Of a stretch of 64,000 bases of DNA, positions 14,709 to 51,206 are shown one piece after another. Numbering within the stretch: position 1 is the stretch's first letter; each line of letters starts with the position of its first letter. The notes under the pieces were generated by a model, which had not been told where the DNA came from, ran no database searches, and saw only the letters and a program-made list of their open reading frames with translations. This DNA is from an uncultured Draconibacterium sp. (GTDB taxonomy: Bacteria > Bacteroidota > Bacteroidia > Bacteroidales > Prolixibacteraceae). The translations under genes were made by a program, and so were the position numbers. The stretch is from positions 124,001-188,000 of the forward strand of contig NZ_CAJXYQ010000005.1 in the NCBI RefSeq assembly GCF_913063105.1, in the 5' to 3' direction.

Positions 14709-14718
14709 AAATAATCTC

Positions 14719-20236: not shown

Positions 20237-21715
20237 ATGAAAACCAGTAACAAAGAGTTTGTTATATATCTGCTAGTGTTTGTATTACTAAGTTCCTGTT
20301 CGGGCATAAAGGATGAATCAGTTCAGAATGAAAAACCACGGGTTATTGTAACCTCTGATGGAGAAATTGACGACGAATGTTCCCTTGTCAGGTTTTTATT
20401 GTATGCAAATGAATGGGATGTGGAGGGAATAATTTCATCAAGTTCGCAATACCACTGGAAAGGTCACAGATGGGCTGGCGACGATTGGGCCGAACCCTAT
20501 CTTGAAGCATACGCGGAAGTATATCCAAATTTAATTTTACACGACAAGGGGTATCCTTCTCCCGAATATCTGAAATCAATAACCTTGATTGGTAATATTG
20601 CTGCCGAGGGCGAAATGGATTCCATAACCCCGGGGTCGCAACGTATTGTAGAAGTTTTACTCGACGAATCGGATAATAGGCCGGTGTGGCTTCAGGCATG
20701 GGGGGGAACCGGTACGATTGCACGGGCGCTCAAAACTATTGAAGAAGAGCATCCGGATAAAATGGAATATGTGGCTAACAAAGTCCGTTTGTTTTTTATC
20801 TGGGAACAAGACAATACCTTTCAAAAATACATTCGCCCGCATTGGAGAAGATACAATATTCAGGCAATAATTTGCGACCAGTTTTGGGCAATTGCATACC
20901 AGTGGGATGAAATTATACCCGAGGAAAAAATCGGTTATTTTACAACCGACTGGATGAAATCGAATATTCTGAACGACCATGGTGCGCTTTGTTCATTATA
21001 TGAAGCATACAAAGGAGGTGACGATAATGAAGGCTGGAGAGCTGGTAGTCCAAAACAAAAAGGCTCGTTCAGATCTGAAGGAGATTCACCAGCTTTTTTA
21101 CACACTATTCCTACTGGTTTAAGGAATTTGGAATCGCCAAACTTTGGAGGCTGGGGAGGCCGCTATGTGAATGTACGCGAAAACACCTGGCTCGACCCGG
21201 TTCCTTTCGAAGGTTATGAGTATCCTGAAGGAAGATGGTACACCCGAAGTGCCTGGGGCCGAATGTACATGCGCGAAACCTACCCTGATAATCAGGACCA
21301 AATGAAAGTGTACTTTAAACCTATGACCCGATGGATGGATGCTTTACAAAACGATTTTGCTGCCCGGGCCGACTGGTGTATTAAACCGTATGCAGAAGCG
21401 AATCATCAACCTGTTGTTAAATTAGGCCATAAACTTGATTTAACGGCTAAGCCGGGAGCTACTATTCAGCTAAGTGCGAAAGGAACTTCCGATCCCGATG
21501 GTGATGATCTTACCTTTAAATGGTGGTTTTACGAAGATGCAAGCGATTATAAGGGAGATGTAAAAATTTCTAATGCCGATCAAATAAACACCACTCTTGT
21601 CGTTCCTGAAAATGCAGGCAGCGGTGAATCCATTCATATTATTTGTGAAGTAACAGATTCAGGTACGCCTAAGTTAACACGGTATAAGAGAGTAATAATA
21701 ACTGTAAATCAATAA
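20237..21715 (+). CDS. DUF1593 nucleoside-hydrolase-like lipoprotein (copy 1 of 5)
   Basis: This 492-residue protein has a lipoprotein signal peptide (lipobox VLLSSC, C21). Residues about 33-330 are a DUF1593 domain with a nucleoside-hydrolase-like fold; the metal-site loop reads TSDGEIDDE (D41, D45, D46), with the same spacing as the Ca-binding D-x3-DD of true nucleoside hydrolases. GFRSEGD-type and NFGGWGGRY motifs precede a C-terminal Ig-like domain (about 395-490, with SDPDGDDLTFKWWFYEDA), as in the Sde0182 family. The activity of this family is not established to my knowledge. It lies between two PL1 genes, so it likely acts on pectin or its side chains. A signal for hydrolysis of a furanoside is inference from the fold. 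Confidence 0.85.
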   Translation: MKTSNKEFVIYLLVFVLLSSCSGIKDESVQNEKPRVIVTSDGEIDDECSLVRFLLYANEWDVEGIISSSSQYHWKGHRWAGDDWAEPYLEAYAEVYPNLILHDKGYPSPEYLKSITLIGNIAAEGEMDSITPGSQRIVEVLLDESDNRPVWLQAWGGTGTIARALKTIEEEHPDKMEYVANKVRLFFIWEQDNTFQKYIRPHWRRYNIQAIICDQFWAIAYQWDEIIPEEKIGYFTTDWMKSNILNDHGALCSLYEAYKGGDDNEGWRAGSPKQKGSFRSEGDSPAFLHTIPTGLRNLESPNFGGWGGRYVNVRENTWLDPVPFEGYEYPEGRWYTRSAWGRMYMRETYPDNQDQMKVYFKPMTRWMDALQNDFAARADWCIKPYAEANHQPVVKLGHKLDLTAKPGATIQLSAKGTSDPDGDDLTFKWWFYEDASDYKGDVKISNADQINTTLVVPENAGSGESIHIICEVTDSGTPKLTRYKRVIITVNQ

Positions 21716-21761
21716 AACTATAAATCCTGCTACTGATTGCAGGACAAATTTCTTTTAAAAA

Positions 21762-23447
21762 ATGAATAAAATGAGAAAGGAAATATATCTTCTGGCAATT
21801 TTATTTTTTTGCCTTACATTAAGTTCTTACGCACAATACCCAAAAATACCTAAGGATGTTCAAAAAGCATCTGCAGAATTAATGGATGAGTCTGAACGTC
21901 TGTCGGATGAAGCATGGGAAAAAGCCCTGGTTGTAATTGAAAAAGAATCGCTTGAAGGAAAACCTTATATACCCTGGGCTTCTCGTCCTCAGGATTTACC
22001 GCAAGCTGAAATTCCAGCTTTCCCGGGAGCGGAAGGTGGCGGCATGTACACCTTTGGTGGCCGAGGGGGTAGGGTTATAACCGTAACCAGTTTGGAAGAC
22101 CGGGGACCAGGTACCTTTCGAGAAGCATGTGAAACAGGAGGGGCGAGAATTATTGTTTTTAATATTGCGGGAATAATCAGGCTTAAAACACCTTTAATTA
22201 TTCGCGCACCTTATGTTACTATTGCCGGACAAACTGCACCTGGGAATGGTGTTTGCATCGCTGGCGAAACAGTTTGGATAAATACACACGATGTAATTAT
22301 CAGGCACATGCGTTTCCGTAGAGGTGAAACCTGGGTAGGCCGCCGCGACGATGCAATTGGTGGAAACCCGATTGGAAATATAATGCTTGATCATATCTCC
22401 GCAAGCTGGGGGCTCGACGAAAATATGTCTGTTTACCGGCATATGTATCATAAAGATCCCAGGAAAAAGCCTGAAAAGTTTGGCACTGTTAACATTACTA
22501 TTCAGAATTCAATTTTCTCGGAAGCATTGGATACATGGAACCACGCCTTTGGAAGTACTTTAGGTGGTGAGAACTGTTCTTTCATTCGTAACTTGTGGGC
22601 AAATAACGCCGGAAGAAATCCATCAATTGGCTGGAATGGAACCTTCAATTTTGTAAATAATGTGCTATTCAATTGGGTACATCGTACGGTTGATGGAGGT
22701 GATCATACTGCACAATATAACCTTATAAATAATTACTTCAAACCAGGTCCGCTAACTCCCCAAAATAAAGCTATTAGTCATCGTCTCCTCAAACCTGAGT
22801 CGAGATATACTCAATTCAATAAAAAAGTTTATGGCAAAGTGTATGTCGATGGAAATATTGTAGAAGGCAATAAAAGGGTTAGCAAAGACAATTGGGACGG
22901 AGGTGTACAAATTGAAGATATGGAAAATGCCGGTGAGTTTACGAAATTTATTAAAGCCAGTAAGCCTGCTATAATGCCCTATTTAACAATTGTAAGTGCT
23001 GAAAAAGCATTCGATTTTGTAGTTGAAAATGCTGGTGCACTTCTACCCGAGAGGGATGAAGTTGACCAACGTATTAGTAGAACCGTAAAAACAGGAATAC
23101 CTGAATATGCTGAAAATGTCGATAATTCAGATGTTCCAAAATTTGAACACCGTAGATTACCCGAAGATTCGTATAAAAAAGGGATTATTACCGATATCAG
23201 GCAAGTTGGCGGCTACCCTGTCTATGAGGGTACGCCATATGTTGATTCAGATAAAGATGGCATGCCCGATGAATGGGAAAATAAATATGCAAAACTCGGA
23301 CTAGACCCAAACAATCCTAACGATGCCAACCTTGATTGTAATGGGGATGGTTATACCAATATTGAAAAATATATTAATGGCATTGATCCAGGTGAAAAAG
23401 TGGATTGGAAAGATCTTAAAAACAACAAGGATACTTTATTGAATTAA
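21762..23447 (+). CDS. PL1-type pectate lyase with N-terminal extension
   Basis: This 561-residue exported protein begins with a signal peptide ending SYAQ and a charged helical extension (about 25-85, rich in E and K) absent from the other PL1 copies. The beta-helix follows: AFPGAEGGGMYTFGGRGG, TIAGQTAPGNGVCI, RHMRFRRGE and the catalytic-region ANNAGRNPSIG. Note that the second arginine of the usual RNPR is replaced by serine here. The C-terminus has DSDKDGMPDEWENKYAKLG plus a second Ca-type loop, NGDGYTNIEKYING. The divergence suggests another PL1 subfamily or preference, possibly a more substituted galacturonan. It is followed after 88 nt by a DUF1593 gene. Confidence 0.85.
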   Translation: MNKMRKEIYLLAILFFCLTLSSYAQYPKIPKDVQKASAELMDESERLSDEAWEKALVVIEKESLEGKPYIPWASRPQDLPQAEIPAFPGAEGGGMYTFGGRGGRVITVTSLEDRGPGTFREACETGGARIIVFNIAGIIRLKTPLIIRAPYVTIAGQTAPGNGVCIAGETVWINTHDVIIRHMRFRRGETWVGRRDDAIGGNPIGNIMLDHISASWGLDENMSVYRHMYHKDPRKKPEKFGTVNITIQNSIFSEALDTWNHAFGSTLGGENCSFIRNLWANNAGRNPSIGWNGTFNFVNNVLFNWVHRTVDGGDHTAQYNLINNYFKPGPLTPQNKAISHRLLKPESRYTQFNKKVYGKVYVDGNIVEGNKRVSKDNWDGGVQIEDMENAGEFTKFIKASKPAIMPYLTIVSAEKAFDFVVENAGALLPERDEVDQRISRTVKTGIPEYAENVDNSDVPKFEHRRLPEDSYKKGIITDIRQVGGYPVYEGTPYVDSDKDGMPDEWENKYAKLGLDPNNPNDANLDCNGDGYTNIEKYINGIDPGEKVDWKDLKNNKDTLLN

Positions 23448-23535
23448 GGTTCTTATTCGGGAAAAGGTGAATAATTATAAAAAAACGTGATAAAAATTAG
23501 ACTGGAAATTCTAAAATAATTTATCCAACAATATC

Positions 23536-24861
23536 ATGCACATAATTGAGAAATCATACAAAATACTAACAGGTCTTATCCTGTCAGTCCTTTTTTTTAG
23601 TGCCTGCGGTTCAAAACAAAAAAGTGATACAGCAACAGATACGAATATTCAAAAGCCTTATCGTGTAATTGTTACGTCTGATATTGGAGGAAACGATCCT
23701 GACGACTTCCAATCTATGGTACATTTACTTCTTTATGCCGATGTGCTTGATATAGAAGGGATAATAGCATCTCCTAAGGGTGCGGGAAGAGTGGAGAATA
23801 TTCATGAAGTAATTAATGAATACGAGAAAGATTATCCAAGTCTGGTAAGTTATTCTGAAAAGTATCCAACAGCTGATTCGCTGCGAATAATTACAAAACA
23901 GGGAGGGGTGGAAGTTGCCGGTTATAAGGGATATGATGATTCTTCAGATGGTAGTGAATGGATTATTCAGTGTGCCCGACGTGATGATCCCCGTCCACTA
24001 TATGTGCTTGTTTGGGGAGGACTAGAAGATGTAGCTCAAGCACTTCATGATGCACCTGATATATTACCTAAACTGAGGGTGCATTGGATTGGCGGTCCCA
24101 ATAAAAAGTGGGGGCCAGATGCCTATCTATACATCGCTGAACATCATCCCAATCTATGGATAATCGAATCAAATGCTACCTACAGAGGATGGTTTACCGG
24201 AGGTAATCAATCGGGGGAATGGAGTAATACAGGTTTCACGAAAAAATACATTAAAGATAAAGGAGCACTTGGAACTTTTTTTATGTCTCAATTGGGAGGC
24301 AAGTTAAAAATGGGTGATACTCCATCCTTAGCCTGGTTACTTAAAGGAGATCCTGAAAATCCATCAGAACCCGGATGGGGTGGTCAATTTGTTCGTACTT
24401 GGGAACGCGCTTATTATCATTTTACACGTATGCCCGATAAAACAGATAGCGTTCAGGAATTTTCAATTCTTGAAATTGTACTTCCAGTGGGTAAAAATTT
24501 ACCTGAAAATCCGGATGCACTTCTTCAGGTTGAGAATCAATTGTTGAAAGGTCATTTTTTAGAAGATGATTCTGTAAGGTTTCGCTTTTGCCCCAAGAGT
24601 GATAAATATTTTAGCTTTAAAATTAGCAGTAATGTTCCTGTGTTAGATGGGGTAACTGGTGGAATTACAGCACTTATAACACCTTCAGGTTTTGCAAAAC
24701 AACCCTCCGAAAAGTATCCAAACTGGTGGACAGATGATCCTGATCCTGAGTTAGCAGAAGGGAATCGTATTGGTGCGAAAACAGTAAGCAAGTGGAGGGT
24801 AGATTTTTTGACTGATTTTGCAAAAAAGATGGAACGCTGTCAAGTTGTTAATAATAAATAG
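23536..24861 (+). CDS. DUF1593 lipoprotein lacking the Ig-like tail (copy 2 of 5)
   Basis: This 441-residue lipoprotein (lipobox FFSAC, C24) belongs to the same nucleoside-hydrolase-like family. The metal loop reads SDIGGNDPDD (D49, D56, D57), with six residues between the first Asp and the pair instead of three. The sequence diverges in the second half: it has WIGGPNKKWG and KMGDTPSLAWLLKG, and it lacks the C-terminal DPDGD-type Ig-like domain found in the other four copies, ending instead in DPDPELAEGNR and a short helix. It probably represents a separate subfamily with its own substrate. It lies between two PL1 genes. No function is known. Confidence 0.82.
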   Translation: MHIIEKSYKILTGLILSVLFFSACGSKQKSDTATDTNIQKPYRVIVTSDIGGNDPDDFQSMVHLLLYADVLDIEGIIASPKGAGRVENIHEVINEYEKDYPSLVSYSEKYPTADSLRIITKQGGVEVAGYKGYDDSSDGSEWIIQCARRDDPRPLYVLVWGGLEDVAQALHDAPDILPKLRVHWIGGPNKKWGPDAYLYIAEHHPNLWIIESNATYRGWFTGGNQSGEWSNTGFTKKYIKDKGALGTFFMSQLGGKLKMGDTPSLAWLLKGDPENPSEPGWGGQFVRTWERAYYHFTRMPDKTDSVQEFSILEIVLPVGKNLPENPDALLQVENQLLKGHFLEDDSVRFRFCPKSDKYFSFKISSNVPVLDGVTGGITALITPSGFAKQPSEKYPNWWTDDPDPELAEGNRIGAKTVSKWRVDFLTDFAKKMERCQVVNNK

Positions 24862-24914
24862 ACTCAGCGTTTGTGTTAAGTATTCTTTTGGTAAATAAGA
24901 TTTAAATAGTTTTT

Positions 24915-26375
24915 ATGAGCAATATTTTTTTCATATTAAAAGGTTTAATTGTTGATGCCACTTTTGCGAAATTACAAAAGTATATTTATAGCATTTTCTG
25001 TTTTGGATTTTTGTTTTGTTCTCAGGTTTATTCTCAACAATTGGCTTTCCCTACTGCTGAAGGTTACGGAAAGTTTACCAAAGGCGGCAGAGGCGGCGTT
25101 GTATATGAAGTTACAAACCTTAACGACAGTGGAAAAGGAAGCTTGAGAGCTGCCGTTGAGGCTAAAGGACCACGGACTGTTGTCTTCAGGATTTCAGGGA
25201 CAATTGACCTGAAAAGCAATCTGGAGATTAAAAATCCATACATCACTATTGCCGGTCAAACAGCACCAGGAGATGGTATTACGCTAAAAAGGTATCCACT
25301 TAAAATCAGTGCTGATGAGGTTATTATCAGGTATATAAGGGTTCGGCTTGGCGATGAATCTGGAGGTGCGGAAGATGCAATATCGAGCCGTTACACCAAT
25401 AATATTATTCTCGACCATGTTTCGGCAAGCTGGAGCATCGATGAAACACTTTCGATTTACCACTGCAAAAATGTAACTGTTCAGTGGTGTATGATTACCG
25501 AAAGCCTTTTTGAATCAAACCATACCAAAGGCAGTGCCCATGGTTATGGCGGAATTTGGGGCTCAGATTATGGCTCCTACCATCACAACCTGATTGCCCA
25601 CCATTCGAGCCGTAATCCACGTTTTGCATCGGGATGCGGAAATACCGACTACCGGAATAATGTATTATACAATTGGGGTTACCAGAGTTGTTATGGGGCA
25701 GAAACTGTTCAGCTTAACAGCGATAAATTTACTTTCAGTAATATTAATATGGTTGGAAATTACCAGAAAGCCGGACCTGCAACTGTACCGGGAGAAATTG
25801 CACATCGTATTGTTTCTCCATCTTCCAGAAATCAGGAAAAGGATTATGGTAAATGGTACATTGCAGAAAATGCAATTGAAGGAAATTCATGGGTGTCGAA
25901 GAATAACTGGTTAGGCGGAGTTCAACCCAAAGGAAGCGAGTTTCTTGAAGGTTTTAAGTTGGATGAGCCATGGCCCGCAATGCCAATCAACCAGCAAACA
26001 CCAGATGATGCTTATGCCTCGGTACTTAAGCATGCAGGTGCAAGCCTCCCCAATCGCGATGCTGTGGATAATCGTATTGTTGATGAAGTTAAAAATGGGT
26101 ACGCAACATATGAAGGAGCCACTTACGAAACGCATTCAAAAGTTCGAAAAGTAACCGATCCTTTAAAAAAATGTGGAATTATTGACACGCAGGACGACGT
26201 AGGCGGATGGCCAGAATTAAAATCGCTTCCGGCGCCTATAGATAGCGACCATGACGGAATGCCCGATAATTGGGAAAAGGAAAATGGGCTTGACCCTGAA
26301 AACGCTTCAGATAGAAACATTGTAGCAACAGATGGTTATACCATGCTGGAGAAATACCTGAATAATATCCTATAA
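24915..26375 (+). CDS. PL1-type pectate lyase with C-terminal Ca-binding motif
   Basis: This 486-residue protein closely resembles the lyase half of the PL1-propeller protein at 14719, including AFPTAEGYGKFTKGGRGG, TIAGQTAPGDGITL, SASWSIDETLS and the catalytic-region HHSSRNPRFASG. It ends with DSDHDGMPDNWEKENGLDP, the Ca-binding module. The hydrophobic signal segment (IFCFGFLFCSQVYSQ) starts about 22 residues in, which is unusual, but no later ATG, GTG or TTG precedes it, so the start at 24915 stands. It is likely a paralogue of the 14719 gene without the propeller. The downstream barrel-protein gene starts 5 nt after its stop. Confidence 0.88.
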   Translation: MSNIFFILKGLIVDATFAKLQKYIYSIFCFGFLFCSQVYSQQLAFPTAEGYGKFTKGGRGGVVYEVTNLNDSGKGSLRAAVEAKGPRTVVFRISGTIDLKSNLEIKNPYITIAGQTAPGDGITLKRYPLKISADEVIIRYIRVRLGDESGGAEDAISSRYTNNIILDHVSASWSIDETLSIYHCKNVTVQWCMITESLFESNHTKGSAHGYGGIWGSDYGSYHHNLIAHHSSRNPRFASGCGNTDYRNNVLYNWGYQSCYGAETVQLNSDKFTFSNINMVGNYQKAGPATVPGEIAHRIVSPSSRNQEKDYGKWYIAENAIEGNSWVSKNNWLGGVQPKGSEFLEGFKLDEPWPAMPINQQTPDDAYASVLKHAGASLPNRDAVDNRIVDEVKNGYATYEGATYETHSKVRKVTDPLKKCGIIDTQDDVGGWPELKSLPAPIDSDHDGMPDNWEKENGLDPENASDRNIVATDGYTMLEKYLNNIL

Positions 26376-26380
26376 TCAGA

Positions 26381-27634: not shown

Positions 27635-27657
27635 AAGTATCAGTCTTAAAAATAAAT

Positions 27658-28989
27658 ATGAAAAAGTTAATTGTATTATTTCTACTTGGTAGCGCAGTCT
27701 TAACATCGGCATGTAACCACACACAACAACAGAAACCACGCGTTATTGTAATGACCGACGGTGAAGTGGACGACCATAGTTCCATGATACGTTTTTTACT
27801 TTATACCTGCGATGTGGAGGTGTGTGCTATTATCGAAACCAATTCGATTTTTCAGCGCCACGGACACAGCAATGAGGATTGGTACGAAAAGCAACTGAAT
27901 GCCTATGAAAAGGTGTACCTAAATCTGATAAAACACAATCCGGACTACCCAACTGCAGAATACCTGCGAAGTGTTAGTTCGGTTGGCGATGAAGTGTATG
28001 AACGGGTAAAAGACCTGCGCGAAAAACGATGGGAATTAATTCCCGGGGGAGATATATTGATGAAACCGGATAATTGGGAAGATACACCGGGCTCCGATAA
28101 AATTGTAGAAGTACTGCTGGAAGATAATCCGGCACCAGTTCATATACAGGCCTGGGGCGGAGGAAATACTGCCGCTCGTGCATTTTATAAATTGAAAACT
28201 GAATACCCAGATGACTATAAAAGAGCCGTTTCAAAAGTGGTAATGTACAACATTTGGTACCAGGATGGAGCGGGAAATTATATCGAGAATTATCATCCTG
28301 ATGTAACCATGATTTACTGCGGAAGCTTTGCCGGTACCTGGAACTACCGAAGTCAAAAAAACACCTATGATTTTATCGAAAATAATGTGAAAAACAACCA
28401 CGGTTCGCTTGGTGCTTTATATCCGCAAGATTATGTGAGCGAAGGTGATAGTCCCGCATTCTTTTACTCGCTTTTTAATGGTCTAAGAAACTACGAAGCC
28501 CCGGAGTTTGGTGGCTGGGGTGGTAGATTTGAAAAAACAGATTTGTTTGAAAATGTGTACAAAGATGCAGTAGATGATGGCGATAATAAAAAGTCGTTAA
28601 GGATGTGGATTGAACAGGTAAATAATGATTTTGAAGCTCGGATGGACTGGTGCGTAGCTGAAAATTTTGCGGACGCTAACCATAAGCCAACAATCAAAAT
28701 TAAAGGAGATATAGACCAAACCGTAAATTCGGGAGAGAAAGTAACATTAACTGCCAAAAGCATTACCGATCCTGATGGCGACAAGGTCGATCATAAATGG
28801 TGGCAATATGGTCATGCAGGAACTTATGATGGCGAAATTGATTTAAAAGACGCTTCATCAAAAAGTATAAGTTTTATTGCTCCAAAAGTTGAAAAAACCT
28901 CAACCATCCATTTTATACTTCAGGTAACCGATAACGGTCAACCTTCATTAAATGCCTACCAACGTTTTGTAATCACTGTAAATCCGTAA
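27658..28989 (+). CDS. DUF1593 nucleoside-hydrolase-like lipoprotein (copy 3 of 5)
   Basis: This 443-residue lipoprotein (lipobox LTSAC, C19) has the metal loop MTDGEVDDHSSM (D34, D38, D39), in the D-x3-DD class with copy 1. The motifs VSEGDSPAFFY and FGGWGGRFE lead to a C-terminal Ig-like domain with DPDGDKVDHKWWQYGHAG. It is closest in layout to copy 1 at 20237. The TIM-barrel hydrolase gene starts only 3 nt after its stop, so the pair are very likely co-expressed and may act on the same linkage. No characterised activity is known to me. Confidence 0.85.
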   Translation: MKKLIVLFLLGSAVLTSACNHTQQQKPRVIVMTDGEVDDHSSMIRFLLYTCDVEVCAIIETNSIFQRHGHSNEDWYEKQLNAYEKVYLNLIKHNPDYPTAEYLRSVSSVGDEVYERVKDLREKRWELIPGGDILMKPDNWEDTPGSDKIVEVLLEDNPAPVHIQAWGGGNTAARAFYKLKTEYPDDYKRAVSKVVMYNIWYQDGAGNYIENYHPDVTMIYCGSFAGTWNYRSQKNTYDFIENNVKNNHGSLGALYPQDYVSEGDSPAFFYSLFNGLRNYEAPEFGGWGGRFEKTDLFENVYKDAVDDGDNKKSLRMWIEQVNNDFEARMDWCVAENFADANHKPTIKIKGDIDQTVNSGEKVTLTAKSITDPDGDKVDHKWWQYGHAGTYDGEIDLKDASSKSISFIAPKVEKTSTIHFILQVTDNGQPSLNAYQRFVITVNP

Positions 28990-28992
28990 CTT

Positions 28993-30444: not shown

Positions 30445-30458
30445 AAACAAATGTGCGC

Positions 30459-31883
30459 ATGAATAAATCAATCCTAATAAAAACATTCGCAGTTATTCTT
30501 GTACTGGTTTGCATAACCAGCCTTTCAAATGGTAAAACCGAAAAAACTGAGCTGGATAAAAGTAATTTACCGCGGCTTCTTATATTGACCGATATCGGTG
30601 ACGACCCCGACGATGAACAATCCTTAATCCGGCTGTTGGTTTATGCTAATAAATTTCAGATTGAAGGATTCATTACCGAGTTGTGGTGGAAAGATACACA
30701 CAACGGGCGGCATGGTCAGATGACTGCAGAAAGTCAAATGAAACTTTTGCACCATATACTCGATCGATATGAAAAAGTCCGTTCAAATCTGGAGAAACAC
30801 GAATTGGGATATCCAACTGCAAAGTCATTGCATGATGTTGTTAAACGAGGGAAAGTAGGGATTCAAATGACCTTAAGTGCTCCAAAAGGAGATCCCATGC
30901 AATGGATCGGTTCCGGGCAGGATACGGAAGGTTCTGATTTTATTATTGATATTGTTGATCGCGATGACCCACGTCCGGTAGATATTTGTGTGTGGGGAGG
31001 GACTGCCGACCTTGCCCAGGCTCTTTTAAAGGTACGGGAAGAACGAACACCGGCAGAAGTTGAACAATTTATCAGTAAAATTCGTGTTCACGCTATTAGC
31101 GACCAGGATGATACCGGACCATGGATAAGGGAAAATTTTCCAAACCTGTTTTTTATCCTCGACCACGACCCGAACGGCGACAAGTGGGAATCATGTTATC
31201 GCGGAATGTTTTATGGCGGCGATCAGTCACTTACCACACTCGATTGGATAAACGAAAATATTCGGACAAATCATGGATATCTTGGTGAGTATTATCCACC
31301 AAAAACCAATACCAACAAGAATCCTCATGGAGCTTTAAAAGAAGGCGATACACCTTCCTGGTTTTACTTCTATCCCAATGGTTTGAATATTCCTGAACAT
31401 CCCGGGTTTGGGGGATGGGGAGGGCGTTATGCCTTTAACGGGAAATTCTGGCAGGATGCTGCCGATAAAGTTGGTGATGATAACAATGGACGGGCTTCTG
31501 TATATCGCTGGCGTCCGACTTTTCAGAATGATTTTGCAGCCCGAATGGATTGGTGTGTTAAAGATTTTGAAGAAGCAAACCACTCACCTGAAGTAAAAGT
31601 AAAAGGCGAAATAATTCAGCATGTTAAACCAGGTGAGAAAATAAAACTTAAAGCAAAGTCATTCGATCCTGATGGAGATAAATTAAGCTACAAATGGTGG
31701 AATTATACCGATGCAAGTACCATTGAAAATGAACTAAGAATAACAAATAATGAATCAGCCGACAAAGCTGGTTTTGTAGTCCCAGATGAACCGGGAAAGG
31801 TTATCCATATCATTCTTGAAGTTGCAGATAACGGGACTCCGGCATTAACCGCTTACAAACGTTTTGTTTACAAAATCCAATAA
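30459..31883 (+). CDS. DUF1593 nucleoside-hydrolase-like exported protein (copy 4 of 5)
   Basis: This 474-residue protein starts at ATG 30459; a GTG six bases upstream is less likely. It has a type I-like signal peptide (TFAVILVLVCITSLSNG) without a lipobox. The metal loop LTDIGDDPDDEQSL (D45, D51, D52) has five residues between the first Asp and the pair, like copy 5. Further family motifs are AISDQDDTGPWIRE, KEGDTPSWFYF and FGGWGGRY, and a C-terminal Ig-like domain carries DPDGDKLSYKWWNYTDAS. It sits between the two TIM-barrel genes. The function is unknown. Confidence 0.85.
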   Translation: MNKSILIKTFAVILVLVCITSLSNGKTEKTELDKSNLPRLLILTDIGDDPDDEQSLIRLLVYANKFQIEGFITELWWKDTHNGRHGQMTAESQMKLLHHILDRYEKVRSNLEKHELGYPTAKSLHDVVKRGKVGIQMTLSAPKGDPMQWIGSGQDTEGSDFIIDIVDRDDPRPVDICVWGGTADLAQALLKVREERTPAEVEQFISKIRVHAISDQDDTGPWIRENFPNLFFILDHDPNGDKWESCYRGMFYGGDQSLTTLDWINENIRTNHGYLGEYYPPKTNTNKNPHGALKEGDTPSWFYFYPNGLNIPEHPGFGGWGGRYAFNGKFWQDAADKVGDDNNGRASVYRWRPTFQNDFAARMDWCVKDFEEANHSPEVKVKGEIIQHVKPGEKIKLKAKSFDPDGDKLSYKWWNYTDASTIENELRITNNESADKAGFVVPDEPGKVIHIILEVADNGTPALTAYKRFVYKIQ

Positions 31884-31894
31884 ATATTTCTACT

Positions 31895-33865
31895 ATGAAC
31901 TTAAATTTTAAAATCAATTATAAATTCTTTCTACAAAAGGCAGTTGCTTTAATGATTGTTCTGTTTTTTGTTACAGATATTTCCGCAATTCAAACAGGGA
32001 AAAAACGTAATTCAGATGGAGATGGAAGTGTGTCCGTTTCAGGTGAACTCAAACAATGGCATAAAGTAACAATCGATCTTTCCGGTCCTTTTGCCAATGA
32101 AACCGGTGTTGATCCAAATCCTTTTACTGATTATTGTTTTGAAGTGACGTTCGAACATGAATCCGGTTCACCAAAATATGTGGTTCCCGGTTATTTTGCT
32201 GCCGATGGAAATGCAGCCGAATCGGGTGCTGAGTCAGGAAATGTTTGGAGGGCTCATTTATCACCCGACAGAACCGGTACCTGGTCATATTTAATCTCCT
32301 TTAAAAAAGGAGCAAGTGTTGCAGTTTCTGATCTGCCCGGTGAAAGCATTGCTCCTTTCGATGGAGTAAAAGGTACTTTTAAAATTGGGCCAACAGATAA
32401 ATCAGGGCGTGATTTCCGAGGAAAAGGAAGGCTGCAATACGTAGGAAAACATCATCTGCAATTTATTGGAACGGGTGAATATTTTTTGAAAGCAGGGCCT
32501 GATTCGCCGGAAACATTTTTAGCTTACGCTGATTTTGACAATACCCATGCTTTGAAAGAGGAAAAATCGCCAATGAAAACCTATGAACCTCATATCAAAG
32601 ACTGGAATAATGGCGATCCGGTTTGGAAAGAAAATAAGGGCAAAGGAATGATTGGAGCCCTAAACTACCTGGCCGGGAAAGGAATTAATACCATGTCGTT
32701 TATGCCGTACAATGCCGGTGGCGATGGCGACAATGTCTGGCCTTTTGTTGAAAGGGATGATAAATTCCATTATGACTGCTCGAAATTAGACCAGTGGGGA
32801 ATTGTATTTTCCCATGCCCAGAAACAGGGCCTGCACCTGCATTTCAAACTACAGGAAACCGAAATAGACGACAACCGGAAACGCGATGGGCAAATGATCA
32901 TTGACCGTGATAAACCTGCTGACGGTTCTCCCGCTGTTCCTGAAGCTTTGGATGGCGGTGCCACTGGCCCTGAACGTAAATTGTATTTACGCGAATTAAT
33001 TGCACGCTATGGCCATAACCTTGCCCTTAACTGGAATTTGGGAGAAGAGAACACCCAAACTTCTGAAGAACAAAGAGCAATGGCAAAGTACATTCATGAT
33101 ACCGATCCGTATAATCATAACATAGTTGCACATTCATATCCAAATATGCAACAGCGGCTTTACGAACCGCTTATCGGAAACGGATCAGAACTAACAGGTG
33201 CATCTCTTCAGAATATGTGGAATGTTGCCCATGAACGAACTCTGCATTGGGTAAAAGCTTCAGCGCAATCGGGCAAACCATGGGTTGTTGCCAACGATGA
33301 GCAGGGGTCGGCAAGGACAGGTGTGCCACCAGACCCGGGGTATAAAGGTTTCGAAGGAACTACTTTCGAAGAAGGATATGAATCGTACGATTTAAATGGA
33401 ATCAGAAAATATACGCTATGGGGAAACCTGATGGCTGGAGGTGCAGGCGTTGAGTACTACTTTGGTTATAAGCTTGTTGAAAACGACCTGGTTGCTGAAG
33501 ATTTTCGCAGCCGTGACCTTACATGGGATTACTGTCGGATTGCTTTGGAATTTTTCAAAAACGAAAAAATTCCTTTTTGGGATATGAAAAATGCCGATGA
33601 GTTGGTCGGCAACTATTCACACAACAACGATGTATATTGCCTTGCAAAAACAAGCGAAGTGTATTTGGTTTATTCCCCTGAAGGTGAAAAAGCCATTTTA
33701 AATCTTCAAAATGTACCGGGTATGTTTAGTGTTGCCTGGTTTAATCCACGCGAAGGTGGTAAAATAAAAACAGAAAAAACAGTAAGTGGAGGTGGTTTTA
33801 TTGAATTAATACCTCCTGTGGAAAATGAAGACTGGCTGGCTATTTTTAAGCGTATAAAGTTTTAG
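31895..33865 (+). CDS. DUF5060/TIM-barrel/collagen-binding-type glycoside hydrolase-like protein
   Basis: This 656-residue exported protein has an N-terminal Ig-like domain of DUF5060 type (about 45-165, with KVTIDLSGPFANETG and PGYFAADGNAAES), a TIM barrel (about 185-560) with FIGTGEYFLKAGPDSPE, MSFMPYNAGGDGDN and NWNLGEENTQ (E384/E385 are candidate catalytic acids), and a small C-terminal beta domain (about 575-656, YLVYSPEGEKAIL and VAWFNPREGG) of the putative collagen-binding type. The architecture is common among secreted polysaccharide hydrolases of uncertain target. It follows DUF1593 copy 4 by 11 nt. Together with the 28993 gene it is a candidate for side-chain removal. Confidence 0.72.
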   Translation: MNLNFKINYKFFLQKAVALMIVLFFVTDISAIQTGKKRNSDGDGSVSVSGELKQWHKVTIDLSGPFANETGVDPNPFTDYCFEVTFEHESGSPKYVVPGYFAADGNAAESGAESGNVWRAHLSPDRTGTWSYLISFKKGASVAVSDLPGESIAPFDGVKGTFKIGPTDKSGRDFRGKGRLQYVGKHHLQFIGTGEYFLKAGPDSPETFLAYADFDNTHALKEEKSPMKTYEPHIKDWNNGDPVWKENKGKGMIGALNYLAGKGINTMSFMPYNAGGDGDNVWPFVERDDKFHYDCSKLDQWGIVFSHAQKQGLHLHFKLQETEIDDNRKRDGQMIIDRDKPADGSPAVPEALDGGATGPERKLYLRELIARYGHNLALNWNLGEENTQTSEEQRAMAKYIHDTDPYNHNIVAHSYPNMQQRLYEPLIGNGSELTGASLQNMWNVAHERTLHWVKASAQSGKPWVVANDEQGSARTGVPPDPGYKGFEGTTFEEGYESYDLNGIRKYTLWGNLMAGGAGVEYYFGYKLVENDLVAEDFRSRDLTWDYCRIALEFFKNEKIPFWDMKNADELVGNYSHNNDVYCLAKTSEVYLVYSPEGEKAILNLQNVPGMFSVAWFNPREGGKIKTEKTVSGGGFIELIPPVENEDWLAIFKRIKF

Positions 33866-33907
33866 CATACAGAAGGTATAGGAAAATTTAATAGAAAAAG
33901 TGTTCTT

Positions 33908-35776
33908 ATGAAAGCGTATTATTGGTTGATTACAGGCTTTTTAATATTGTTTGACCTTGCACAAGGACAAATAATTAATCCGAATGAACCGGTTAAATAT
34001 ATTGGTAAAGACCAAATCTCGAACAGTGATTATAAAGAAGGCTATCATGACGGGCAAATGCAGCCTGCTATCGGGGTTCAGAATTACCAGATTTTGCGTG
34101 CAAACCGAAGCTATCCTGAAAAATCTGATGGTTTGGGCTGGACGTATAACCATGCACCAAACCTTGCTTATTGGAACAATCAGTTTTACTGCCATTACTT
34201 ATCCAATCCAACCGGCGAACATATTGCTCCGGGAGCAACATTAATTAGCTCATCAAAAGATGGAATGACCTGGGAAAAACCAAAACTTGCATTCCCAATA
34301 TATTTTACGGCTAATGATGACGCATCCATAAACTTCTTTTTTATGCACCAGCGTATGGGTTTCTATGTGGCTCCCAACGGACGCTTGTTAACCATGGGGT
34401 TTTATGGTAGTCATTCCGGTTATGGAATAGGAAGAGTGGTGCGGGAAATTTATGAGAACAACGAATTTGGACCAATATATTTTATCAGGGTTAACGACAA
34501 TTGGGAAGGAGAAGTAAAATATCCTATTTATTCTGATTCAAAAGATCAAGGTTTTGTTGCTGCATGCGATGCATTTCTAAACGATAAAGTGAAGCGTATG
34601 CAATGGTGGGAAGAACACCGTTTGGCAGAAGATCGTAAGGAGTTCTTCCGCGTTCCTGCCATTGATGGGAAGGATCAGCCGGGTCAGGCTTTTTGTTATT
34701 ACACCTTACCCGATAAAACTCTGGTTGGATTTTTCAAAGGACGCTGGGTGACCACATCAACCGATAATGGAGATACCTGGACACAACCGGTACAATGCAA
34801 TTCATTAACATACAAAGGAGCAAAAATTTGGGGGCAAAAACTGGATAACAAACGTTATGCACTGGTTTATAATCCCACAAACAGTATGGCACGTCATCCC
34901 CTAAGTATTGCTACCAGCGATAATGGAATTCAGTATGATAACTTGTTAAATGTACATAGCGAGGTGCCTCCAAAACGATTCTGGGGGGCTGAAAAGCGAC
35001 CCGGGCCTCAATATATAAGAGGTATTATTGAAGGAAATGGTAACCCCCCAGGCGATGATCTATATGTGGTTTATTCGGTAAATAAAGAGGATATTTGGAT
35101 TTCAAGAGTTCCGGTTCCGGTTAAGGGAGAAGTAAACGGTCCTGTAGTCGACGAATTTGATAAAATGGAAGTGGGAGGATCGGTTACAAATTGGAATATT
35201 TATTCACCAAAGTGGTGCCCGGTTGAAATAAGTAAGTCTCCAACAAGTCCCGAAAATGTTTTGATGATCAAAGATTTTGATCCTTACGATTATGCCAAAG
35301 CAGTTCGGGTTTTTCAAAAGTCGAATAGATTAAAAATCGAATTTCAGCTGTTTATCGAAGCCAACCCTGAAATGCTTGCTGTAGAAATAGTGTCGGCAAA
35401 TGGTAACCGCTGTGTGCAAACCAAAATCGATGTAGATGGAATCCTGAAAGCTAAAAATGGAACAAATGGTTTTTCTAATGTTCTTGCTTTGAATTCCGGA
35501 AAATGGATATCGTTTGAGTTTGGCATTAACGCCGTGGAAAAGACATTTGACCTTTTCGTGAACGGAGAATTTGTTGCCGGGAAATATGATCTTTCTAACG
35601 ATGGTATCCCGGAGCGGATAATTTTTCGCACAGGAGAATATCGTCTTACCGATGATGTGCAAAAATGGAAAAGTGGAGATAAATTCATTCCCGGGTGGGA
35701 TGAGCCCGGTGCCGACGAACAAGCTCAGGAAGCTGTTTTTTATTTACGGGAATTTTCCTCTAAACCCATTGAATAA
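33908..35776 (+). CDS. Exported BNR/sialidase-superfamily beta-propeller protein (copy A)
   Basis: This 622-residue protein has a signal peptide ending LAQG. It then reads as a beta-propeller with Asp-box-like turns (SSKDGMTW, STDNGDTW) up to about residue 420, followed by a concanavalin-like beta-sandwich (about 425-620, with NWNIYSPKWCPVEI and IIFRTGEYRLTDDVQKW). Such modules occur in lyases and hydrolases of acidic polysaccharides, but I cannot place it in a CAZy family. A paralogue that aligns from end to end lies at 41407. The two copies bracket an oxidoreductase, an enolase-like protein, a DUF1593 protein and a GH105. Surface or periplasmic action on pectin fragments is inferred. Confidence 0.75.
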   Translation: MKAYYWLITGFLILFDLAQGQIINPNEPVKYIGKDQISNSDYKEGYHDGQMQPAIGVQNYQILRANRSYPEKSDGLGWTYNHAPNLAYWNNQFYCHYLSNPTGEHIAPGATLISSSKDGMTWEKPKLAFPIYFTANDDASINFFFMHQRMGFYVAPNGRLLTMGFYGSHSGYGIGRVVREIYENNEFGPIYFIRVNDNWEGEVKYPIYSDSKDQGFVAACDAFLNDKVKRMQWWEEHRLAEDRKEFFRVPAIDGKDQPGQAFCYYTLPDKTLVGFFKGRWVTTSTDNGDTWTQPVQCNSLTYKGAKIWGQKLDNKRYALVYNPTNSMARHPLSIATSDNGIQYDNLLNVHSEVPPKRFWGAEKRPGPQYIRGIIEGNGNPPGDDLYVVYSVNKEDIWISRVPVPVKGEVNGPVVDEFDKMEVGGSVTNWNIYSPKWCPVEISKSPTSPENVLMIKDFDPYDYAKAVRVFQKSNRLKIEFQLFIEANPEMLAVEIVSANGNRCVQTKIDVDGILKAKNGTNGFSNVLALNSGKWISFEFGINAVEKTFDLFVNGEFVAGKYDLSNDGIPERIIFRTGEYRLTDDVQKWKSGDKFIPGWDEPGADEQAQEAVFYLREFSSKPIE

Positions 35777-35797
35777 ACTACAAAATGAACTAAAAAT

Positions 35798-37240: not shown

Positions 37241-37291
37241 AACAGCTATTTTTATAATTCGAACTAAAAAACAATTATCTACCTTGATTTC

Positions 37292-38536
37292 ATGCAAGTA
37301 AACAGGAGAAAATTTATTAATACAGCTTTAGTTGGAGGAGTAGCGACGGCACTTCCTTTTACTTCATGCAATTCTGATAATTTTGAAGAAATATATAAAA
37401 AGCTTGACAATGTAGTTAAGCTTCCGATTCTTAAAACAAAATTGTTCTCTGATGCTGTAATCATCGAATCAATCGATTTACTTGAATATAAAAACAACTT
37501 CCTGTGCCGTGTTCGCTCGAAGGATGGAGCCGAAGGTTTTTCATTTGGTAACAGTTCCATGAATGCCTTTTATCCAATATTTACAAAAAGGATAAAACCA
37601 TATTTTTTGGGTAAGGATGCCCGTAATTTGGAAGCGCTTCTGGATGAAGTTTACGTTTATAAGAGCAATTACAAACTTCAAAGTACCGCGTTATGGGTTC
37701 CGGTGGCTACACTTGAATTTGCTATTCTTGACTTGCTGGGTCGCATTGCAGGCAAACCCATGGGAGAGCTTATTGGTGAGATTCATAATCCTGAAATTAA
37801 ACTTTATCAAGCCAACAGTAAACGTGGTATTTCTGCTGAAGAAACAATGGATCAGTTGTTAAAACAGTTAGATGTATCTAAAGCCGAAGCTGTAAAATTT
37901 AAGGTTGGAGGGCGAATGAGTGCTCCTGAATTTCCAAAAGGGCGGTCTGAAAAACTAATTCCTTTGGTTCGAAAAACGTTAGGCGATGATATGGTAATTT
38001 CCGCCGACTCGAATGGATCGTATGATGTAAACGAAGCTATTCGAATTGGTAAAATAATGGAAGAACACAATTTCGATTTTTACGAAGAACCTGTGCCCTT
38101 CGATTGGTATGAGGAAACAAAACAGGTAGCTGATGCACTAGAAGTACCCATTGCGGGAGGCGAACAGGAAGGCAGCATGCGCAACTTCCGATGGTTGCTG
38201 GGAAACGACGCCATTCAGGTTTTACAAGCCGATATGTTCTATTTTGGAGGAATGATACGCTCGATGAAAGTTGCCCGGATGGCAAATGTTTTGGGTAAAG
38301 TACATACTCCGCATGTTTCAAATATCGGGTATGTTTACATGTTGCATTTTGTTTCGGCTCTTCCAAATGCAGGGAAATACCACGAGTTTAAATCGCCTTT
38401 TAACAAGGATATGTCGTTCGAGTGTAAAACATCGAGTTTGTTACCCGAAAACGGAAAAGTAAAAGTTCCAACCGATCCCGGTTTAGGAATTGATTTTGAA
38501 CCAGGATTTATTAATAAACACAAAATTGTAGAATGA
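37292..38536 (+). CDS. Exported enolase-superfamily (mandelate racemase/muconate lactonizing type) protein
   Basis: This 414-residue protein starts with a Tat-like signal (NRRKFINTALVGGVATALPF) ending in a lipobox-like FTSC, suggesting an exported lipoprotein. The barrel has the superfamily residues: K202-x-K204 (VKFKVGG), metal ligands D239 (SADSNGS), E265 (YEEPVPFD) and E291 (GGEQEG), and H338/H341 in KVHTPHV. Most relatives are cytoplasmic acid-sugar dehydratases or racemases, so export is unusual. Together with the exported Gfo/Idh protein it may act on a sugar acid or lactone before uptake. Its stop overlaps the next gene's ATG by four bases (ATGA), indicating translational coupling with DUF1593 copy 5. 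Confidence 0.87.
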   Translation: MQVNRRKFINTALVGGVATALPFTSCNSDNFEEIYKKLDNVVKLPILKTKLFSDAVIIESIDLLEYKNNFLCRVRSKDGAEGFSFGNSSMNAFYPIFTKRIKPYFLGKDARNLEALLDEVYVYKSNYKLQSTALWVPVATLEFAILDLLGRIAGKPMGELIGEIHNPEIKLYQANSKRGISAEETMDQLLKQLDVSKAEAVKFKVGGRMSAPEFPKGRSEKLIPLVRKTLGDDMVISADSNGSYDVNEAIRIGKIMEEHNFDFYEEPVPFDWYEETKQVADALEVPIAGGEQEGSMRNFRWLLGNDAIQVLQADMFYFGGMIRSMKVARMANVLGKVHTPHVSNIGYVYMLHFVSALPNAGKYHEFKSPFNKDMSFECKTSSLLPENGKVKVPTDPGLGIDFEPGFINKHKIVE

Positions 38537-39945
38537 AGCATTTATTAACCATTATACTGTTATTTATTGTGGCATCGCTTGGTGCCTCAGAGAAAATCCG
38601 GTTAATTGTTTTAACCGACATTGGGGGTGATCCCGACGACCAAATGTCGATGGTTCGGCTGATGACCTATGCCAATCATTTCGATATTGAAGGTCTGATT
38701 GCAACACCTCATGGGGGTAGAAATGAGGTTGAACCCGAATACATTGAAAAAATAGTCGAGGCTTACGGAAAAGTTCGCGATAACCTGGAATTGCATGAGA
38801 CCGGTTATCCAGGCGAAGACCAATTAAAAACGGTCATCTCAAAAAGTATTGAACTTGATAATATGGAATCGGTAGGAGAGGGGAATGACTCACCCGGTTC
38901 TGAACTGATAATTAAGGCGGTTGACAAAAAGGATGACCGTCCATTGTGGATTAATGTTTGGGGAGGTCCAAGTGTTTTGGCACAGGCTCTTTGGAAAGTC
39001 CGTGAAACACGGTCGCCGGATGAACTGGCAAAGTTTGTATCCAAACTTAGGATTTATGCTATTTCCGATCAGGATAACACAGGTCCCTGGATTCGGAAAG
39101 AATTTCCTGATTTGTTTTATATCGTTACTCCCGGTGTTAATGCTGGAGGAGGATTCCATCATGCTACCTGGATTGCCATTGGTGGCGATAAATTCCATGG
39201 GCGCTTTGGTGGTGCCGATTTTTCGTTGGTAACAAACGAGTGGCTCGACGAGCATGTTAGAAGTAAAGGCCCTTTGGGAGAAAGGTATCCACGTTGGAAA
39301 TTTATGATGGAAGGAGACACGCCTTCTTTTCTTTATTTAATTAATAATGGCTTAAATAATTCTGAACGACCCGACTGGGGTGGCTGGGGAGGACGCTACG
39401 AGCTGTACACTCCCAAAAACGAAAAGTGGTTTTTAGAACCTGAAACCCGTCCGATATGGACCAATGTGCAGGATGAAGTTTTAGGGAACGATGGCGAATG
39501 GCACACCACCAATCATGCAACCATCTGGCGCTGGCGTGAAGCTTATCAAAATGATTTTTCAGCACGTATGGATTGGACTATCAAATCGTACAACGAGGCA
39601 AACCACCCGCCTGTGGTAAAACTCGATCATCCTGAATACATTATAGCAAAACCTGGAGAGCGTGTCGATTTAAGCGCAACAGCTACAACCGACCCCGATG
39701 GAGATGAATTGTCGTTTAAATGGTTTTGTTATGAGGAGCCGGGTACACGCCGCATGTCAAATTCCAAAACCGGAGTGAAACATGAGATTGAAGATAGCGA
39801 TAAAGCTAAGGCCTGGTTAAAAGTAAAAACAAGCAGGGTAATGGCTCCGGGAACGGGAACCATGCACATTATATTGGCAGTAACTGATAATGGAACTCCC
39901 AGCCTTACTCGATATAAGCGGGTTATTATCGATGTAGTTAAATAG
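38533..39945 (+). CDS. DUF1593 nucleoside-hydrolase-like exported protein (copy 5 of 5)
   Basis: This 470-residue protein has a short signal peptide (LLTIILLFIVASLGAS). The metal loop LTDIGGDPDDQMSM (D29, D35, D36) puts it with copy 4. It also shares AISDQDNTGPWIRK, MMEGDTPSFLYL, WGGWGGRYEL and a C-terminal Ig-like domain with DPDGDELSFKWFCYEE. It overlaps the enolase-like gene by four bases, the closest coupling seen for any DUF1593 copy, and is followed by a GH105 gene. If DUF1593 proteins release a sugar, the adjacent exported oxidoreductase and enolase-like proteins could process the same product. That chain is speculative. Confidence 0.85.
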   Translation: MKHLLTIILLFIVASLGASEKIRLIVLTDIGGDPDDQMSMVRLMTYANHFDIEGLIATPHGGRNEVEPEYIEKIVEAYGKVRDNLELHETGYPGEDQLKTVISKSIELDNMESVGEGNDSPGSELIIKAVDKKDDRPLWINVWGGPSVLAQALWKVRETRSPDELAKFVSKLRIYAISDQDNTGPWIRKEFPDLFYIVTPGVNAGGGFHHATWIAIGGDKFHGRFGGADFSLVTNEWLDEHVRSKGPLGERYPRWKFMMEGDTPSFLYLINNGLNNSERPDWGGWGGRYELYTPKNEKWFLEPETRPIWTNVQDEVLGNDGEWHTTNHATIWRWREAYQNDFSARMDWTIKSYNEANHPPVVKLDHPEYIIAKPGERVDLSATATTDPDGDELSFKWFCYEEPGTRRMSNSKTGVKHEIEDSDKAKAWLKVKTSRVMAPGTGTMHIILAVTDNGTPSLTRYKRVIIDVVK

Positions 39946-51054: not shown

Positions 51055-51206
51055 ACTATTAAGATTGTTTGTTTTTAGAGGTATAGTGTGGAACTCGCAT
51101 TTATTTTGTTAATCCTCCCGGGTGTAATATTTTACATGCTCGTTTCATTTGGTATGTTTTATCAGATTGATATAAAGTTTATAAGTTTCATTAAGCTTGA
51201 TGGCTG

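Follow-up and report, generated by a model that had tools for sequence, protein, structure and literature searches.

Exported nucleoside-hydrolase-fold proteins of family DUF1593 are candidate apiofuranosidases in a Draconibacterium pectin locus

A 64,000-nt stretch of the genome of an uncultured Draconibacterium sp. (contig NZ_CAJXYQ010000005.1, positions 124,001 to 188,000; hereafter the window, or C5:124001-188000 of source genome G000) encodes five exported proteins of family PF07632, formerly DUF1593, in a pectin locus that also carries a cassette of putative D-apiose catabolism genes. We propose that these proteins, NH1-NH5, are probably Ca2+-dependent β-D-apiofuranosidases with a nucleoside-hydrolase fold that act on apiose-bearing galacturonan. 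The proposal builds on protein families, fold, residue conservation, synteny and gene fusions, from which we infer catalysis, Ca2+ binding in the window copies and the substrate. For the family as a whole we lean, with less assurance, towards DUF1593 founding a new glycoside hydrolase family, its fold having turned from N-ribosides to O-apiosides, a Bacteroidota analogue of GH140 beside D-apiose catabolism, with the paralogues of this locus dismantling different apiose decorations of apiogalacturonan.

Five diverged PF07632 proteins share one locus

Against Pfam profiles, all five open reading frames (ORFs) of the window score 199.7-355.6 bits for PF07632 (Sde182_NH-like), far above its curated cut-off of 26.8 bits, and in four of the five the PF21027 domain (Sde0182_C) follows. 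All lie on the plus strand. NH1 (20237..21715; PF07632 235 bits, PF21027 105 bits) and NH3 (27658..28989; 214 and 88 bits) are lipoproteins with a D-x3-DD metal loop, and NH2 (23536..24861; 200 bits) is a lipoprotein with D-x6-DD and without PF21027. NH4 (30459..31883, longest ORF start at 30453; 272 and 86 bits) and NH5 (38533..39945; 356 and 89 bits) have a signal peptide and D-x5-DD; the start of NH5 overlaps the 3′ end of an enolase-like gene by 4 bases. The export signals, judged by eye, are a lipobox Cys in NH1-NH3 and an ordinary signal peptide in NH4-NH5. The initial annotation, which described five exported DUF1593 proteins in a pectin locus, three of them lipoproteins and two with signal peptides, was thus borne out.

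NH1-NH5 are 27-49% identical to one another and, to judge from their sequences, are old, diverged paralogues rather than recent copies. The source genome holds ten PF07632 copies: the five of the window, two just upstream of it (NH6-NH7, C5:113008-115782), two on contig C12 and one on contig C4. No match to PF13204 (GH140) was found in NH1-NH5 at E up to 0.1, and none of the five reaches the 34.2-bit cut-off of the nucleoside hydrolase family PF01156, for which only NH2 scores at all (13.7 bits).

A conserved aspartate cluster lies in a nucleoside-hydrolase fold

The metal loops read TSDGEIDD in NH1 and TDGEVDD in NH3 (D-x3-DD), TDIGDDPDD in NH4 and TDIGGDPDD in NH5 (D-x5-DD), and SDIGGNDPDD in NH2 (D-x6-DD), the same division into two copies with the short spacing and three with a longer one that had been read from the sequence before. 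Scripted calls across 118 family domains gave x5 in 61, x6 in 28, x3 in 20 and x4 in 1, with no call in 8. The loop of the solved relative 2yhg (Sde_0182 of Saccharophagus degradans) is D-x5-DD, and passages of PMC8910321 describe this protein as keeping Ca2+. Because x3, x5 and x6 occur family-wide and 2yhg combines x5 with Ca2+, loop spacing does not divide intact from degenerate sites, and we ruled it out as a sign of a lost metal site.

The acidic residues of the putative site are nearly invariant. In an alignment of 104 domains (NH5 numbering), D29, D36 and D262 are each kept in 102 rows and D35 in 103, as are S39 (101), W143-G144-G145 (103) and P264 (102); E260 is present in 79/104. The late Asp is preceded by Gly in 103/104 domains, where RihA has the His of its HDP motif (equivalence by eye). 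In nucleoside hydrolases this His is the leaving-group acid, and its replacement by Gly fits a lack of activity on nucleosides.

The AlphaFold model of NH5 (predicted local distance difference test, pLDDT, 87.9; predicted template modelling score, pTM, 0.90) superposes on 2yhg with template modelling (TM) scores of 0.78/0.88 and 35% identity across the Foldseek alignment. This is its only good full-length match; the rest of the top 50 are partial or poor, and there is no nucleoside hydrolase among them. The NH2 model (pLDDT 80.2) matches 2yhg first and then many nucleoside hydrolases, including 4i70, 2c40, 3g5i and 2mas (E 3.7e-7 to 4.1e-5, TM 0.33-0.59). By hhalign, the N-terminal Asp loop aligns with a nucleoside-hydrolase profile at a probability of 93.8, the profile consisting of two sequences only, RihA and the source genome's own nucleoside hydrolase. 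With the Asp residues kept in 102-103 of 104 domains and a fold matching 2yhg and, for NH2, nucleoside hydrolases, the earlier suggestion of Ca-dependent furanosidases fits.

The fold, together with the weak PF01156 match of NH2, could also be taken to mean secreted nucleoside hydrolases for nucleoside salvage. We consider this very improbable, as the NH2 score falls under the PF01156 cut-off, the leaving-group His appears by eye to be Gly, the genes keep company with pectin and apiose genes, and Sde_0182 is inactive on purine and pyrimidine nucleosides according to passages of PMC8910321.

The tenth DUF1593 copy, on contig C4 (L016:7793-9463), has DE for DD and has lost the late Asp (GGGTIP); its sequence suggests that it is possibly non-catalytic. 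Its neighbours are a flavin adenine dinucleotide (FAD) oxidoreductase and an enolase-like gene.

The source genome encodes a putative apiose cassette and importer

Four minus-strand genes of the window, identified by Pfam, make up a putative apiose cassette: the C part of a split transketolase, AptB-like (43421..44368; 40% identity to E. coli AptB); its N part, AptA-like (44374..45225; 47% identity to E. coli AptA); a Fucose_iso_C sugar isomerase, the proposed D-apiose isomerase (45253..46665); and an FGGY kinase of glycerol-kinase type, the proposed apulose kinase (46703..48196; 38% identity to E. coli AplK). Among the 80 AptA loci described below, the isomerase is present in 76 and the kinase in 67. 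A PDB sequence search with the isomerase gave no match.

Genes for an ATP-binding cassette (ABC) importer (C5:115772-119899) come directly after NH6-NH7, upstream of the window. They are 41% (permease), 42% (ATPase) and 35% (binding protein) identical to their E. coli SE15 counterparts, and in both genomes a DUF2291 gene sits between binding protein and ATPase. The apiose cluster is in two parts ~47 kb apart in the source genome. By contrast, three further genomes from the same class (G001, G065 and G110) have an uninterrupted set made up of regulator, isomerase, AptA, AptB, binding protein, DUF2291, ATPase, permease and kinase genes. The closest named relatives of the window AptA in our tree are from Prolixibacteraceae (Draconibacterium, Mariniphaga, UBA1413), which makes a source organism in or near this family of Bacteroidota probable. 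Passages of PMC13001218 give SE15 locus tags for the aplK, aptA, aptB cluster and report growth on D-apiose of E. coli strains with the D-apiose cluster, SE15 not being among the strains listed there as tested.

Near the apiose genes there is also a gene for a DUF1537-type four-carbon sugar-acid kinase (Pfam) with a PdxA2-like gene (by eye), at L013:2653-8521 on C5, just downstream of the window. A look-alike set, called by eye, lies directly beside the apiose cluster of genome G110 (L025:6139-12170).

DUF1593 genes recur within putative apiose operons of other Bacteroidota

When 295 genomes were sampled evenly from the class, the source genome among them, PF07632 was found in 17 genomes and a window-type AptA (>=66% identity) in 4, all of which also have PF07632. 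To this we added a set of AptA loci, the best 80 of 576 from an alignment scan of named genomes, which is non-random, having been chosen by likeness to the window AptA; whole-genome counts cover 78 of the 80, and the flanks reach up to 10 kb but are short in some loci. A hidden Markov model (HMM) built from the ten source-genome copies matched DUF1593 within the flanks in 27/80 loci, one of the matches being weak. Strong matches (>100 bits) number 35 genes in 26/80 loci, against 0.5 expected from the 149 PF07632 matches, fragments counted as matches, in the 419 Mb of the 78 genomes; PF07632 is present in 61/78 of these.

Some of the genes are part of the operon itself. Fourteen strong DUF1593 ORFs in 12 loci, and one weak one, lie inside the apiose operon on the same strand, at five operon positions. 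In two Runella, Flavilitoribacter, two Adhaeribacter and Dyadobacter they separate AptB from the binding protein; in a Saprospiraceae bacterium and Lacibacter, the isomerase from AptA; and in two Flavobacterium and a Sphingobacteriales bacterium, the permease from the kinase. Mariniphaga has them at two places, one flanked by regulator and kinase and the other by AptA and AptB. These loci belong to seven named families and one unplaced Sphingobacteriales. Other embedded ORFs of at least 150 aa (n=13; four Pfam-scanned, the rest named by sequence or left unnamed) comprise DUF5060 proteins, esterases, one PF01156 relative, permeases and a few without a name. The PF01156 relative (L095:17380-18417; 55 bits, over cut-off) has an apparent signal peptide and lies beside DUF1593, so that L095 has a second branch of the nucleoside-hydrolase fold within one apiose operon.

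Gene fusions join DUF1593 to other domains. Genome G001 has four DUF1593 genes near the apiose cluster on one contig; of these, one is a fusion with a pectate-lyase-like domain (by BLAST) and another a fusion with GH88/105. In Draconibacterium aestuarii (L040) the apiose cluster, the importer and NH1-, GH105-, PL1- and NH7-like genes form one unbroken stretch. Overall we found two fusions with GH88/105, one with a PL1-like domain and one with DUF5060 and Collagen_bind_2 (L105). G065 and G110 each have a single DUF1593 gene, elsewhere in the genome than the apiose cluster. Two further fusions were noted, DUF1593-sulfatase in a Flavilitoribacter genome (L176:1-2778) and DUF1593 with DUF5060 and a BD-FAE esterase in a Sphingobacterium genome (L174:145-2316).

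As a control, we counted the pectin enzymes of the window locus (PL1-like, GH105, GH28, PL10) at the same 80 loci. HMMs made from two or three sequences each, two of the sequences coming from just upstream of the window, found them in 12 loci at E up to 1e-10; a BLAST count of the same genes gave 11, and was redone by HMM because BLAST is less sensitive than the DUF1593 HMM. Since 22/26 strong-DUF1593 loci have no pectin enzymes, and pectin enzymes occur at 12 loci against 26 for DUF1593, the link of DUF1593 is to apiose more than to pectin. Eight loci have pectin enzymes without DUF1593. The initial annotation had named apiofuranosyl or arabinofuranosyl side chains as possible substrates; the former branch receives strong genomic support, and the latter gains none here.

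Apiosidase-like genes accompany the same cassette in two Bacillota

Next to some cassettes stand genes of PF13204 (old name DUF4038), the family of the GH140 apiosidases, or of DUF5060 type. Canonical GH140 occurs in 6/80 and DUF5060-type genes in 12/80 AptA loci, the DUF5060 HMM including proteins from four of the 80 loci; in L043, the DUF5060 protein encoded within the apiose operon has a match to PF13204 (apiosidase-like) as well. In Listeria monocytogenes the order is isomerase, transketolase N, transketolase C and a glycerol-kinase-like kinase, then a beta-glucoside phosphotransferase system and DUF4038. Monoglobus pectinilyticus has the same cassette order followed by a DUF5060 gene, and genes for a ribose-type ABC importer are close by. 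Identities to the window proteins in Listeria and Monoglobus are 55/45% for transketolase N, 43/46% for the kinase and only 26/27% for the isomerase; the Listeria DUF4038 is 25% identical to the source-genome GH140, and the Monoglobus DUF5060 protein 29% to that GH140's weaker relative. In a reading of gene order, an apiosidase-like gene thus stands in these two Bacillota where many Bacteroidota have DUF1593. A split transketolase pair of Collinsella has no cassette around it.

A possible route of apiose release and use

In the route that we envisage, residue roles are those of nucleoside hydrolases and catabolic steps those of the transketolase pathway. β-D-Apiofuranose has the cis-2,3-diol of β-D-ribofuranose, the group bound by the nucleoside-hydrolase Ca2+; apiose is favoured over arabinose because L-arabinofuranose lacks it. 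D29, D36 and D262 would bind a Ca2+ ion that chelates the furanose cis-2,3-diol, and D29 would activate water, as in nucleoside hydrolases. Since the (E)GD(T/S)P motif has Gly at the place of the leaving-group His, another residue, perhaps E260, may serve as the acid.

The substrate could be seagrass or duckweed apiogalacturonan, or apiosyl stubs of rhamnogalacturonan II (RG-II), which is an alternative source of apiose. Passages of PMC7644952 and PMC4483652 describe seagrass apiogalacturonan as a 1,4-galacturonan with single apiose residues or short apiofuranose chains at O-2 or O-3. Such a variety of linkages would account for the number of diverged paralogues at a single locus. The paralogues may be split accordingly by linkage, cleaving single apiose (Api) on O-2 or O-3 of galacturonic acid, or Api-Api. 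The backbone would be cleared by PL1-, PL10-, GH28- and GH105-type enzymes, and free apiose would be taken in by the ABC importer encoded with NH6-NH7 and used by the isomerase, kinase and split transketolase.

Observations that weigh against an apiofuranosidase function

Several observations weigh against this proposal, and we set them out here with the explanations that they favour. The proteins might be furanosidases that act on a sugar other than apiose (L-arabinofuranose or a ribofuranoside) and meet apiose genes through common plant-wall loci. Of the 17 sampled genomes of the class with PF07632, 13 are without a close AptA, and the 14 DUF1593 regions in those 13 show few pectin genes, with one GH28 pair and one weak PL10 relative. 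In the source genome, NH8 and NH9 sit with GH43/GH88/GH95/GH29/GH98 and with GH67/GH31 genes. Because two paralogues keep such company, the apiose substrate is not extendable to the whole family, and a part of the paralogues at other places may have different substrates; in a FastTree phylogeny of 118 domains, copies near AptA loci form part of large clades, mixed with others. The importer binding protein resembles ribose binders, being closest to ribose-binding protein 2fn8 (377 bits, against 209 bits for 5ibq, a D-apiose complex), and 54/80 AptA loci have no strong DUF1593 in their flanks. Still, DUF1593 is found at different positions within the operon in at least seven families, pectin genes are rarer than DUF1593 at the cassette, and L-arabinofuranose has no cis-2,3-diol for a nucleoside-hydrolase Ca2+ to chelate; we therefore hold another sugar to be quite unlikely.

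A second set of points concerns catalysis. The NH2 model superposes loosely, with TM 0.48/0.51 against 2yhg and at most 0.61 against nucleoside hydrolases. Sde_0182, besides being inactive on nucleosides, is credited with no glycosidase activity in the passages of PMC8910321, which nevertheless say that it keeps ribofuranose binding; PDB and Pfam label the protein cellulose-binding. These organisms already have an apiosidase, since PF13204 (canonical GH140 or weaker relatives) matches in 49/50 AptA genomes searched (of the 78) and the source genome has a canonical GH140 27 kb beyond the window. Moreover, 45/80 AptA loci have neither DUF1593 nor apiosidase-like genes. NH1-NH5 could then bind furanoses without catalysis, keeping apiose-bearing pectin in reach of the true apiosidase, DUF5060 or GH140, in keeping with the co-occurrence and fusion of DUF1593 and DUF5060. 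Set against this, DUF1593 occurs without GH140 or DUF5060 in the flanks at 18/80 loci (the converse at 9, both at 8), the Asp cluster is near-invariant, and to become diverged stand-alone lipoproteins in such number would be a rare fate for binding modules. We judge a purely binding role unlikely, though worth keeping in view, and favour an apiofuranosidase function.

The assignment of the cassette to apiose must also be weighed. Other split transketolases match the window AptA at 40-50%, where E. coli AptA matches at 47%, and the AptAB tree leaves E. coli unplaced, its grouping with the window type being neither rejected (approximately unbiased test, p 0.477) nor supported. AptA identity alone was ruled out as proof of apiose, split transketolases at nine loci (L031-L039) that are without the other apiose genes matching equally well. 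As AptA identity does not discriminate and E. coli is unplaced, the apiose assignment rests on the gene set. The kinase (46703..48196) passes the NCBIfam GlpK cut-off, and no other close kinase of GlpK type was found in the source genome. A housekeeping GlpK is disfavoured, as the same type stands in the cassette of relatives, Listeria and Monoglobus; a double role, as GlpK and in the cassette, is conceivable. The GlpK annotation of the cassette kinase may mislead, also in Listeria and Monoglobus.

Pectin genes surround the five proteins

A plus-strand run from ~8.7 to 43.3 kb contains, besides the five PF07632 genes, genes for GH28, a PL10-type lyase, pectate-lyase-like proteins, an SGNH hydrolase, two BT_1020-like propellers, GH88/105, Gfo/Idh and an enolase-like protein. 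Pfam identifies three kinds of pectin neighbour: a GH28 polygalacturonase-like lipoprotein (8752..10362; PF00295, 115 bits), a PL10-type Pec_lyase (13323..14708; PF09492, 101 bits) and a GH88/GH105 unsaturated uronyl hydrolase-like protein (39992..41365), whose G001 relative forms a fusion with DUF1593. The pectate-lyase-like proteins are a fusion with a BNR_2 sialidase-like part (14692..17238; lyase part by eye, BNR_2 249 bits), PL1a (18871..20217; Pectate_lyase_4 at 17.6 bits, under cut-off), PL1b (21762..23447; by eye, no Pfam match) and PL1c (24915..26375; no Pfam match, 70% identity to a domain of the G001 DUF1593 fusion). For PL1a-PL1c and the N-terminal half of the BNR_2 fusion, no Pfam lyase exceeds its cut-off, and the PL1-like calls were made from sequence. 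Between PL1c and NH3 lies a gene for a 417-aa exported protein without a Pfam match (26381-27634), possibly an outer-membrane beta-barrel.

A protein with DUF5060 and Collagen_bind_2 (31895..33865; Pfam) adjoins NH4 and is followed by a BT_1020-like beta-propeller (33908..35776; Pfam, 5mqr residues 21-581); a second such propeller, also by Pfam, lies at 41407..43269, all on the plus strand like the genes above. On the minus strand, 53960..55150 encodes a second GH88/105-like protein, named from sequence, with a homologue adjoining the apiose cluster in Draconibacterium locus L040. The stretch 48352-53945 holds genes for two tandem large secreted proteins of ~900 aa each, LTD/CotH-like by eye, a homologue of which likewise adjoins the L040 cluster. 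On the RG-II side there are the two propellers in the window and GH95 on C12; other RG-II enzymes (GH78, GH95 and GH137-GH139) were not seen in the part of the window's ORFs that was scanned.

Significance and comparison with known systems

Apiose decorates the pectin of some seagrasses and duckweeds, and RG-II. If the proposal is right, a structurally solved family that has had no assigned function gains a concrete substrate, a nucleoside-hydrolase fold would act on an O-glycoside with a ribose-like cis-2,3-diol, and the apiose-removing enzymes would be of importance for carbon turnover in seagrasses, for duckweed biomass and for the structural analysis of RG-II. PF07632, its structure and the furanose-interaction hypothesis are already known: PMC8910321, in the passages at hand, attributes the 'furanose sugar-interacting' idea for Sde_0182 to Hehemann 2011. 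Among the matches listed in a literature search of titles and abstract openings, with subscription papers mostly outside it, none assigns apiosidase activity or apiose to PF07632.

Sde_0182 (2yhg) shares with the window proteins the two-domain PF07632 and PF21027 architecture, the D-x5-DD loop and the fold of NH5. In its native protein, however, it follows three carbohydrate-binding domains (passages of PMC8910321), whereas the window copies are stand-alone and lie in a pectin and apiose locus. With PF01156 nucleoside hydrolases (RihA, 3g5i; purine nucleoside hydrolase, 2mas) they have the fold of the NH2 model in common and an N-terminal Asp cluster that aligns by hhalign, but they are exported, carry Gly for His before the late Asp and fall under the PF01156 cut-off. 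GH140 (PF13204) and its DUF5060 relatives stand beside the same isomerase-transketolase-kinase cassette and would release the same product, apiose, although the DUF1593 proteins are unrelated to them by sequence, with no PF13204 match. Finally, the D-apiose transketolase pathway of E. coli SE15 and Pectobacterium has the kinase, split transketolase, binding protein, ATPase, permease and DUF2291 in common with the genes described here; it differs in having, in E. coli, two short-chain dehydrogenase/reductase (SDR) genes where the Draconibacterium has a Fucose_iso_C isomerase, and the cluster is split in the source genome.

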